From Caldisericales bacterium (GTDB lineage: Bacteria; Caldisericota; Caldisericia; JAAYUI01), in the NCBI GenBank assembly GCA_012517765.1, contig JAAYUI010000008.1, positions 1 through 64,000 on the forward strand: DNA of 64,000 bases. Direction: 5' to 3'. How positions within the stretch are numbered: position 1 is the first letter of the stretch; the number at the start of each line of letters is the position of its first letter. Under the pieces are notes generated by a model, which saw only the letters and a list, made by a program, of their open reading frames with translations, was not told the origin of the DNA and ran no database searches. Below are positions 21,053 through 24,923 of the stretch, one piece after another. The position numbers were made by a program, and so were the translations under genes.

Positions 21053-21066
21053 GATTTCCCAATTTA

Positions 21067-22617
21067 TCAAATGCCTGTGTTGTATTCTGGTGGATCTTTT
21101 ATGTCGCAGATTTTTTTAAGTAACTCTGGGTTTTCCTCATGAAATTTATGGAAGAAAACAATGGCCAGTTCTGTAAGTTTCTTTGATAATTCGCATTCAA
21201 AATGGTGTGGTGTAAATATATCACCGGTGGAAACGAGGTTATGATGAAAACACCCACCAGCACAACTCATTCTTATCCAGCATTTTTTGCATGGCCCTTC
21301 CCTATTTCCACTCCTCTCAATTATCTTCCTGTACATGTCTTCGCTGTATGAACCATCAAGCAAGTTGCCTGCGCTATTTTTCTTGTCACCAACAAACCTG
21401 TGGCACAAATACACGGTTCCCTCAGGAGATATGTCGACATAGCTCCTTCCGGCCCCACAAGGCCATGGGTTGACTTGCCGGCTGTAAAGCATTTGCAGGG
21501 ATTTTATAAACATATTGCTTCTTGGAAGGAGTTGAATACCAGATTCACCATCATAATCGATGTTCTTGGACATCTCTCCCAAGATATTTGTGTAATATGA
21601 ATACAAATCATTAAAACCCTCAACCAGTTTTTGGCAACCTTCCTCTGTGAGAAAATGCTCTCCCATCGTTCCAGTTGCAGGGCTGAGCAGAACATTCCAA
21701 AAACCAGCCTTGTATAAATCCCTGGAAAGCCCCACAAGATCGTAAGATAAAAATGTTGCCCTAGAAGTCATTCTCCTGTTGTATGTCTTCGTCAGCCTCA
21801 TCACTCCATTAATGGTTGCATCATAAGATGGACGGCCATCAGCAAATGGTCTTTGGGTATTCTGCACACCAGGAGGGCCATCGATACTCACCATTGGGTT
21901 GACCCCTAACTCAAAAAGTTTGGCAGCAATTTCTTCTGTCACAAGGGAAGCGTTGGTGGTCATTCCAAAATCAACATTCAGGCCATTTGCCTGGGCAACT
22001 TTCTTTGCATACTCGACAACCTTTGGAATCAAGGCAAAATTCGCCAGTGGCTCTCCACCAAAAAAAGTTATTCCAAAATCTTTATAGCCAGCCCCCATAA
22101 CCCTTTCAATTTGCCAGTCAATGGCCGCTTTTGCGACATCAAACGGCATGTCCATGTCCGGGGTGCCAAAGGAACCACCATCGCCATAGCAATAAATGCA
22201 GTTCAGGTTGCATTTATGGGTGATATTAAGTGCCATAAATTTTGGCGTGAGCTTATCGGGAAGCTTTTTGCTTTTGCTTTGCCAGTCAGGCTCTGCTTCA
22301 GGCTTTTCAGCAGGCAACAGCAATCTGAAACGGGCCATTTCCGTCAAAACCTCAAAGACCGCTTCTTGTCCATACTTGCCCTGAAAAACCTGTTTTATGT
22401 CGCTTACTGTTGTGCCAGCTTTTTCCTTCAGGTAAGATACAACTTCAAGGGTGGGTTCGTCTGCTCCAAAAATAATCTGGGTGCCAACATCAAAAAGCAA
22501 TTTCGACTTCCCGTTTTCCACCAGGTGGGTTTCGGAGGCCCTGACTGACCTGCCCTCAAAATCAGATGGGGGCCAGTTTTGGCCCCCATCATTTACATTT
22601 TGCCCATTCTTGATCAT
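21067..22617 (-). CDS. Radical SAM/SPASM peptide maturase (putative thioether-forming)
   Basis: A 516-residue cytoplasmic enzyme. Residues 30-103 form a small alpha/beta domain like the leader-recognition (RRE/PqqD-like) regions of peptide maturases. The radical SAM triad is C136-x3-C140-x2-C143 in HKCNLNCIYC, with the GGEP motif at 187-190. A complete SPASM set follows: C387, G400-x4-C405, then C443-x2-C446-x5-C452-x3-C456 and C475. This order is the one found in SCIFF/ranthipeptide, QhpD-like and anSME-like maturases. The start overlaps the stop of a Cys-rich peptide gene (ATGA), and a second Cys-rich peptide lies before that, so the likely job is to install Cys thioether bonds in them. Substrate assignment is inference from context. 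A perfect inverted repeat lies in codons 10-18. Confidence 0.9.
   Translation of the reverse strand: MIKNGQNVNDGGQNWPPSDFEGRSVRASETHLVENGKSKLLFDVGTQIIFGADEPTLEVVSYLKEKAGTTVSDIKQVFQGKYGQEAVFEVLTEMARFRLLLPAEKPEAEPDWQSKSKKLPDKLTPKFMALNITHKCNLNCIYCYGDGGSFGTPDMDMPFDVAKAAIDWQIERVMGAGYKDFGITFFGGEPLANFALIPKVVEYAKKVAQANGLNVDFGMTTNASLVTEEIAAKLFELGVNPMVSIDGPPGVQNTQRPFADGRPSYDATINGVMRLTKTYNRRMTSRATFLSYDLVGLSRDLYKAGFWNVLLSPATGTMGEHFLTEEGCQKLVEGFNDLYSYYTNILGEMSKNIDYDGESGIQLLPRSNMFIKSLQMLYSRQVNPWPCGAGRSYVDISPEGTVYLCHRFVGDKKNSAGNLLDGSYSEDMYRKIIERSGNREGPCKKCWIRMSCAGGCFHHNLVSTGDIFTPHHFECELSKKLTELAIVFFHKFHEENPELLKKICDIKDPPEYNTGI
22565..22590 (-). promoter_or_regulatory. Perfect inverted repeat in the first codons of the radical SAM gene
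   Basis: GATGGGGGCCA (22565-22575) and TGGCCCCCATC (22580-22590) are perfect 11-base arms around a four-base loop. On the transcribed strand the hairpin is followed by TGATTTTGAG, a short U-rich stretch. It could act as an attenuator or block ribosomes, lowering maturase relative to peptide expression. Confidence 0.5.
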
Positions 22618-22988
22618 ATAGCTGTGATATCATCGACCCTTGTCGGGAATGGGCCACAAAAAGACGCATCAGAAACAAGATTGTTCCCAGAGGTACGGCA
22701 TGCAATGTCGTTGAATTGGGAGCAAGGGATATCAGATTTTATATTACTGCATCCTTCAAGGTCAGCTCCACCACCTGCTTTTGTGTCACGACAGACACAC
22801 ATGTCAAAAGTAAGATTACAACCACTACTGTCATTAAAGCGGCAGTAATCATTCCTGAGGCAATAGTGATCACTCATTAGAGTATCCTTAAATCCATCAA
22901 TACCGCACCAGTCGATAATGCAACTGTTAAATAACATCTCAGCATATGAAGTAAAGATATTCAACGGCTTTATATGTTTATTTTGCAC
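22614..22988 (-). CDS. Cys/Asp-rich candidate precursor peptide B
   Basis: A 124-residue protein with 11 cysteines and no membrane segment or signal peptide. Chosen start is GTG at 22988 because GGAGGT ends four bases before it; the frame is open to ATG codons at 23000 and 23024. From this start it reads M-Q-N then KHIKPLNIF, matching the M-KHIVPLNLI start of peptide A. In both, ten residues separate PLN from N-x-C, the first cysteine. Three D-x-C motifs occur: CIIDWC, CLRNDYC (a C-x3-D unit) and CNLTFDMC, plus CSNIKSDIPC, which mirrors CSGTSVDKPC in peptide A. It is the likely substrate of the radical SAM gene that overlaps it by four bases. A metal-binding protein is the main alternative. 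Confidence 0.75.
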   Translation of the reverse strand: MQNKHIKPLNIFTSYAEMLFNSCIIDWCGIDGFKDTLMSDHYCLRNDYCRFNDSSGCNLTFDMCVCRDTKAGGGADLEGCSNIKSDIPCSQFNDIACRTSGNNLVSDASFCGPFPTRVDDITAI

Positions 22989-23013
22989 GTTTACCTCCAT
23001 TGTTATTTTGGGG

Positions 23014-23403
23014 TCAATCTGCATATTCGGTTATTCCGATCTTAACATGGCAAGCTTCTTTATTGGTGCACCCACCAGGACAATCACCTGCATCAAATTG
23101 CTTGCATTGATCTTTTTGGAAGCAATCTGAGATATCAATACTTTCACAATAATCCATAGAATAACAAGGTTTGTCCACTGATGTGCCAGAGCACCAGTCC
23201 ATACCTGCAGCATTACACGTGTCTATATCACAGCTCCATTGCGATGTGTCACTGCATTTGCAGGCAAAGCAGTCGCCACTGCCCATAGTAGAAAACAGAA
23301 CTGGGCAACCATCCATTTTGCATGGATCATCAAGTGCCCCGCACATGTTTGGGGACACCCCGCCTGAAAAACCAATCAGGTTTAAAGGCACTATGTGTTT
23401 CAT
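23014..23403 (-). CDS. Cys/Asp-rich candidate precursor peptide A
   Basis: A 129-residue protein with 16 cysteines (positions 21, 28, 33, 45, 48, 50, 58, 63, 71, 80, 86, 94, 100, 108, 112, 118), all after a 20-residue Cys-free leader beginning MKHIVPLN. Six D-x-C motifs occur (D26, D31, D61, D69, D84, D98), among them the C-x3-D units CYSMD and CFQKD. Such Cys-to-Asp spacings are known thioether sites in QhpD- and PapB-type chemistry, so the peptide is probably multiply crosslinked; this is inference. A strong GGAGGG site lies seven bases before ATG 23403. It follows the propeller gene by 18 bases and overlaps the upstream part of the peptide B frame. It lacks ferredoxin or zinc-ribbon spacing. 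Confidence 0.78.
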   Translation of the reverse strand: MKHIVPLNLIGFSGGVSPNMCGALDDPCKMDGCPVLFSTMGSGDCFACKCSDTSQWSCDIDTCNAAGMDWCSGTSVDKPCYSMDYCESIDISDCFQKDQCKQFDAGDCPGGCTNKEACHVKIGITEYAD

Positions 23404-23421
23404 TTAATCCCCCTCCCCTTT

Positions 23422-24696
23422 TTATGGATTCAGCTTGGCGCCGGCCACCTCGTCATAATTGTTGCGGTAATCGTCCCATACGGCAATATTGCCTTTGATA
23501 ACGGGAAGGACCTGGTCACCACTCTGATTGCACAAGACAAACTCGGAGCTCCCGGAAATGGAGTAGCCATATATGTCAATCGCTGTTGTTGACGCATTTC
23601 TCTCGTCTTGCCACACCACCCAGTTGCCATTGATTTGGGGCGGGCCCTTTATCGAGATTTGGGTGTCTATGTACGAGCCATTGCAAGGCACAAGCGGAGG
23701 GGAAGGCGGCATTGGATATAAACCTATCCTTGCTGGTGCCATAAGGTTTGAGCAAACACTGGCATGGCATACGGCATAGAGCCCGCTTATCCTTGGATAT
23801 ATCGTCGTTACTCCAACCTGGTTATCAACAATCACCTCTGACGAAGTTGGAATGTAGTAACCATAAATATCCCCCTTGTCGTGGTCAGTATCGGAGTTTT
23901 CATAATCATTGCGGTGTTCTTCCCACACAATGTAATTTCCATCGACGTCAGGATAGTATTGCTCCGCCTGGTTTGTGCATACCGCAAAACCTGTACTAGT
24001 TGAAAGGTTGAAGGCATATATGTCCGGATTGTTGTTTCTGAAATCAACCCAAACCACCATTTGGCCATCACTTTCAGGCACGCCAAAAACCTGTGAGTTG
24101 AGCGAGCCATCTCTTACAGTGATGGTCTGGGAGGTTGTAAGGTTGTAGGCATAGATTGCATCGGTGCCAGGATTGTGCTCTTTCCAGATGACATAATTGC
24201 CGGCAATTTTGGGCATTACCTCCAGGCCTTGCCTGTTTGATATGGTTGATGATGTTTGTGTCTGGCGATTGTAAAGGACTATGTCCCAGGAATCAATGGA
24301 AGCGATGGATTTATTTGCAAAAACAATATAATTGTCGTTTATGTCTGGATAGCACTCTGTTTTATTCGCATCAGACGAAATTGTGCTCGTGGTGCTGGCA
24401 TCAACATCATACATTTTTATATCATTATTTGTGTCATCACCGCTCGCCCGCGTTGAAAAAACAACCTTGTTGCCAGCTATACTGGGATAAAATTCTTTGT
24501 ATGTGTCGCTCAATATAAAGGGTGTAACTGTAGTTGTTTTTAAATCAGGCTTTATTTCATCAACATCCTGGAATTTGGCCACTGCCGCCGAGGTGGTATT
24601 CTTCGGGCCAAAAACTATTCCGGTTACAAGAGCAATCGCAATTACAGGCAAAATCAGCAGTATCAACAAAAGATATTTCTTTTTGTATCTCTCCAT
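23422..24696 (-). CDS. Membrane-anchored TolB-like beta-propeller protein
   Basis: A 424-residue protein with one N-terminal membrane segment (basic MERYKKKY then a hydrophobic run to about residue 29) and no cleavage-type lipobox, so it is probably anchored with the rest outside the cytoplasm. Seven to eight blades repeat the pattern YPxIxGNxVVWxDxRN-x(n)-DIYxYxL, as in TolB/DUF5050-like propellers: EFYPSIAGNKVVF, ECYPDINDNYIVF, YYPDVDGNYIVWEEHR, PPQINGNWVVWQDERN. It is the first gene of the radical SAM operon, with GAGGAGGAG before its ATG. It may bind or display the modified peptides; quinohemoprotein amine dehydrogenase also pairs a propeller subunit with a thioether-crosslinked small subunit, an analogy only. 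Confidence 0.8.
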   Translation of the reverse strand: MERYKKKYLLLILLILPVIAIALVTGIVFGPKNTTSAAVAKFQDVDEIKPDLKTTTVTPFILSDTYKEFYPSIAGNKVVFSTRASGDDTNNDIKMYDVDASTTSTISSDANKTECYPDINDNYIVFANKSIASIDSWDIVLYNRQTQTSSTISNRQGLEVMPKIAGNYVIWKEHNPGTDAIYAYNLTTSQTITVRDGSLNSQVFGVPESDGQMVVWVDFRNNNPDIYAFNLSTSTGFAVCTNQAEQYYPDVDGNYIVWEEHRNDYENSDTDHDKGDIYGYYIPTSSEVIVDNQVGVTTIYPRISGLYAVCHASVCSNLMAPARIGLYPMPPSPPLVPCNGSYIDTQISIKGPPQINGNWVVWQDERNASTTAIDIYGYSISGSSEFVLCNQSGDQVLPVIKGNIAVWDDYRNNYDEVAGAKLNP

Positions 24697-24725
24697 ATCT
24701 CCTCCTCAAATTGAATTGTGTCTTG

Positions 24726-24756
24726 ATAATAATCAATTCCCCCCCCCTATTGTCAA
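24726..24756 (-). promoter_or_regulatory. Promoter of the radical SAM/Cys-peptide operon with a nine-G spacer tract
   Basis: On the minus strand TTGACA (24751-24756) is followed by a 19-base spacer containing nine consecutive G (24739-24747) and then TATTAT (24726-24731), about 30 bases before the propeller start codon. GATTAT at 24729-24734 gives an alternative 16-base spacing. Homopolymer tracts between promoter boxes are the classic basis of phase variation. Confidence 0.65.
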
Positions 24757-24923
24757 CTGGGCAAACTGAAAAACCAAACCGTCTAAAATATTGATGGTTT
24801 AACAAGAAAATGGGAGTCACCCAACTCATTAAATATAATTATATTGTCATATTTTTTCGGGTTTTTTTCATATACCTCATGGGAATCATTGCCAAAAAAA
24901 GACAAAAAAGATAAAATGTCTCC

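Follow-up and report, generated by a model that had tools for sequence, protein, structure and literature searches.

In Neisseria meningitidis, a poly-G tract lies between the -10 and -35 elements of the porA promoter, and altered spacing abolishes transcription (PMC7864442). Among enzymes that modify peptides, PapB crosslinks Cys-X3-Asp in PapA, forming a thioether (PMC9413430). A search of one literature collection for phase variation in Caldisericota found no report. Here we examine a locus of an uncultured Caldisericia bacterium within a 64,000-nt stretch of DNA, analysed whole and referred to as the window, where a homopolymer of nine G (G9) lies in the spacer of a putative operon promoter, the position that a porA-type tract occupies. 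From its sequence, a slippery spacer with a graded effect is plausibly the most likely account of this tract, with an evolved switch as the minority reading.

Anatomy of the candidate promoter

Read directly on the minus strand, the order of elements is TTGACA-ATAGGGGGGGGGAATTGAT-TATTAT-CAAGACACAATTCAATTTGAGGAGGAGAT-ATG, and the spacer between TTGACA and TATTAT is 19 bases, nine G included. A preliminary description of this DNA had the positions, the count of nine G and the 19-base spacer exactly right (Table 1). It had also called the tract the most striking one between promoter boxes in the window. No other G/C run in the 64,000 nt exceeds 6. The description made no mention of a second -10-like hexamer, GATTAT, at 16 bp from the same TTGACA. 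A perfect TTGATnnnnATCAA palindrome covers the -10 region. An FNR-box reading of TTGATTATTATCAA was rejected, as the genome holds 11 such sites, 8 of them within ORFs, and no PF00027 (Crp/Fnr family) protein was found in any of five genomes (0/5, with controls positive in 10/14).

Table 1. Features of the candidate promoter, its operon and related peptides. Positions are those of the window unless a locus is named.
Feature	Position	Strand	Basis or detail
-35 hexamer TTGACA	24751..24756	-	sequence and promoter shuffles
G9 homopolymer, within spacer	24739..24747	-	sequence
Alternative -10 hexamer GATTAT	24729..24734	-	16 bp from the same TTGACA
-10 hexamer TATTAT, chosen in the preliminary description	24726..24731	-	19 bp from TTGACA
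TTGATTATTATCAA palindrome over both -10 candidates	24723..24736	-	FNR-type box match
Ribosome-binding region GAGGAGGAGAT, directly 5′ of ATG	24697..24707	-	sequence
Beta-propeller repeat protein, 424 aa, first gene of operon	23422..24696	-	TIGR04275, 134.6 bits, cut-off 85
Cys-rich candidate precursor 1, 129 aa, 16 Cys, six CX3D	23014..23403	-	sequence
Cys-rich candidate precursor 2, 136 aa, 11 Cys	22614..23024	-	sequence
Radical SAM/SPASM peptide maturase, 516 aa	21067..22617	-	domain matches
Cassette extent, replaced by other genes in congeners	21061..24882	.	alignment and ORFs
SCIFF-like peptides	L007 1076-1249; L009 1287-1451; L010 1278-1442; L021 1191-1346		by reading

The hexamers lie at the proper distance 5′ of the RBS and ATG of the operon's first gene. 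When G9 was held fixed and the remainder of the 227-bp intergenic region was shuffled, a tract-spanning promoter match of at least 11/12 arose by chance with P = 0.0009, and one of at least 10/12 with P = 0.013. Across the window, sigma70-like promoters matching at least 10/12 were present in 8 of 24 upstream regions, against 1.1 expected. No better promoter was found on the minus strand within the 227-bp intergenic region, and because the upstream neighbour is divergently oriented, simple read-through into the operon is ruled out. On this sequence evidence, the TTGACA/TATTAT promoter of the peptide operon is probably genuine. The preliminary description had put a promoter in the right place and before a real operon, while use of that promoter is a prediction.

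The optimal spacer in E. coli is 17 bp. For the clade, we scanned 214 noncoding exact TTGACA sites for TANNNT downstream, using ~1.14 Mb from G000, G002 and G004 (window included), three genomes of one family. TANNNT followed at 16 bp in 38 cases, at 17 in 13, at 18 in 11 and at 19 in 9, with 2 at 15 bp and a background of ~4 at irrelevant spacings; a looser promoter set peaks likewise at 16 bp. TTGACA promoters of this Caldisericia family favour a 16-bp spacer, not 17, and because the family's TANNNT peak is at 16 bp, the E. coli figure is not the local optimum. The suggestion that loss of two G would bring the promoter to an optimal 17 therefore does not carry over to this clade, where GATTAT is already at 16. 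In silico, loss of one, two or three G places TATTAT at 18, 17 or 16, and gain of one G places GATTAT at 17. With GATTAT at the favoured distance of 16 bases from TTGACA, G9 does not appear to be a clean OFF state. The binary on/off behaviour proposed earlier gives way to an expected graded response, with GATTAT as a fallback -10 and a spacing that changes stepwise. Within the clade, -10 hexamers that begin with GA show no enrichment at 16 bp (3 sites against a background of ~4), and GATTAT may be non-functional, in which case the promoter could be nearly off.

The peptide operon and its variable site

The four genes of the operon are tightly packed, with gaps or overlaps of <20 bases, and the gene for Cys-rich protein 2 shares a few bases with both flanking genes. 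By reading, the beta-propeller protein has a hydrophobic N-terminus. CX3D motifs are enriched in Cys-rich protein 1 (six motifs, shuffle P = 0.006), and Cys-rich protein 2 has three (shuffle P = 0.10). The maturase matches PF04055 (radical SAM) and PF13186 (SPASM) above cut-off, and scores 216 bits against a cut-off of 340 for NF047865 (PapB, NCBIfam) and 213 bits against 425 for TIGR03974 (SCIFF maturase). Because the maturase falls under every curated full-length cut-off shown, we designate the predicted cassette as ranthipeptide-like and no more. A query with the maturase against a genome collection of 84,980 species returned no match. Small Cys-rich peptides that are SCIFF-like by reading adjoin the nearest maturase homologues (~30% identity) in other Caldisericia. 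A second, paralogous cassette is found near a contig end at G000:C75 (L188 2299-5013), with a propeller, a Cys-rich protein of 105 aa and a radical SAM protein in identical gene order. Its promoter is TTGACA-17-TAAAAA before the propeller gene, with no G run.

The genes flanking the cassette, glutamate dehydrogenase and a PPDK-like gene, are retained in the congeners G001-G003, where the PPDK-like gene is 96% identical. The equivalent of 21061-24882 is occupied in these congeners by a hypothetical gene, another that is MarR-like and a pair of ABC-transporter genes (names by reading; L045-L048). One of these genes was compared with the window's genome, where it has no ortholog (best 44%). In G004, from another genus of the family, the glutamate dehydrogenase and PPDK-like genes are directly adjacent and the site is empty. 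From these alignments, the lineage-specific radical-SAM cassette appears to have been inserted, or to have replaced other genes, at a site that varies. Since the congeners carry an unrelated cassette here, they offer no orthologous tract position at which lengths could be compared.

Readings of the G9 tract

Loss of MutS and MutL increases the rate of indels in homopolymers. In a family search of 31 Caldisericia genomes, neither MutS_I (PF01624) nor the MutL domain PF01119 was found (0/31 for each), with 11/14 control genomes positive in both cases. A MutS_V match was present once per genome in 5/5 genomes searched, in a protein of 787 aa that has a Smr-like C-terminus (by reading) and is without MutS_I in these genomes; the only MutS-like protein thus appears to be MutS2. 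Because canonical MutS/MutL went undetected, slippage at G9 is likely, and it would probably be left unrepaired.

We hypothesize, with about even confidence, that G9 is the spacer of a genuine housekeeping-sigma promoter and that it probably slips, making it an accidental rheostat and not a selected switch. Nine G would give a sub-optimal promoter, with a good TATTAT at 19 bp and only the weak GATTAT at the favoured 16, and expression in this state is probably low to moderate. The tract would probably slip because the lineage is without MutS/MutL, and every G lost, down to six, should lift expression stepwise, so that the response would be graded as opposed to binary. Promoter use, slippage and the graded effect are all parts that we infer.

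Another reading is that the tract is an evolved, porA-type phase-variable switch, which selection keeps and whose slippage turns the operon on or off in some cells. The anatomy is that of porA (PMC7864442), canonical mismatch repair was not found in the 31 Caldisericia genomes, and the operon belongs to a cassette that is variable and lineage-specific, all of which suit a switch. The frequency of such tracts argues the other way. The window has two overlapping G8 words against 2.5 expected from shuffles, and G9 is one of three runs that reach at least 9 in the 2.79 Mb assembly; another G9 tract is at G000:C19:108288. From the decay of run lengths in 407 kb of the same genome (27 runs of six and 5 of seven), we estimate that ~2 runs of at least 9 would occur genome-wide by chance, leaving no surplus of tracts. 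As a bare run, location aside, G9 is not above chance. With G9+ tracts no more frequent than chance (3 in 2.8 Mb) and absent from the congeners G002 and G003, with neither of the genome's other two between good promoter boxes, with an overlapping -10 pair that would buffer instead of switching, and with a paralogous cassette that lacks the tract, we regard an evolved switch as unlikely.

A static spacer is a further reading, where G-rich spacers are tolerated or provide stiff DNA in Caldisericota and the nine G hardly vary. A loose G-rich-spacer pattern, searched in 61 genomes, gave 13 matches where its reversed control gave 2, which favours this view. So do its convincing matches, spacers of G6-G8 before housekeeping-like genes, which are poor candidates for phase variation: TTGACA-16-TATAAT with G7 lies 5′ of an AdoMet-decarboxylase-like (speD) gene in G004 (L208 1501-1528), TTGACA-17-TAAAAT with G8 lies 5′ of a leuS-like (leucyl-tRNA synthetase) gene in G051 (L210 1501-1529), and a G6 spacer, conserved in two species, precedes a csp-like (cold-shock) gene (L213 1501-1526, L214 36-61). 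These names were assigned by reading translated starts, not by family search. Because housekeeping-like genes have them, G-rich spacers do not in themselves point to phase variation or to a product at the cell surface, and the earlier idea of a surface or antagonistic product finds no support in the tract. Among 100 family promoters with an ORF start downstream, 7 had a G run of at least 4 and 2 had such a run of C, so that any general preference for G runs in the spacers of this family is weak. Given this, and the expectation that nine G would slip where MutS/MutL are lacking, a static tract has a low probability. Fortuitous hexamers, with the operon's transcription starting at another place, are very unlikely, since despite the 19-bp spacing of the 11/12 promoter, unfavourable in the clade, such a match has P = 0.0009, the 227-bp intergenic region holds no better minus-strand promoter and the divergent upstream gene precludes simple read-through.

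We return to the slipping, graded spacer as our preferred reading. It is quite doubtful that an environmental anaerobe without detectable MutS/MutL has here a contingency promoter, at which spontaneous change in tract length sets how far some of the cells express the ranthipeptide-like cassette. If tract length varies, control of expression by a spacer tract would extend beyond host-associated pathogens to a lineage without MutS/MutL, and would drive a peptide-modification operon. If tract length is constant, what remains of use is the rule of 16-bp spacing in the clade, together with the interval from glutamate dehydrogenase to the PPDK-like gene as a variable cassette site.

Comparison with porA, PapB and SCIFF systems

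The maturase resembles that of SCIFF systems in that its nearest Caldisericia homologues (~30% identity) adjoin SCIFF-like peptides, however, it scores 213 bits against the 425 cut-off and its own neighbours are not SCIFF-like peptides. It is similar to PapB in being a radical SAM/SPASM protein that adjoins a Cys-rich protein with six CX3D motifs, as PapB acts on PapA. The locus differs in having two long Cys-rich proteins and a beta-propeller, and in a maturase score of 216 against 340 bits. The promoter shares with porA a homopolymeric G tract in a sigma70-type spacer, where tract length fixes spacer length (PMC7864442). Measurements on porA cover both the variation in tract length and the transcriptional consequence, whereas the Caldisericia tract is read from the DNA of one assembly. 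Unlike porA, the Caldisericia promoter has a second -10 at the spacing that its clade favours, and it is found in a genome that is not rich in such tracts.
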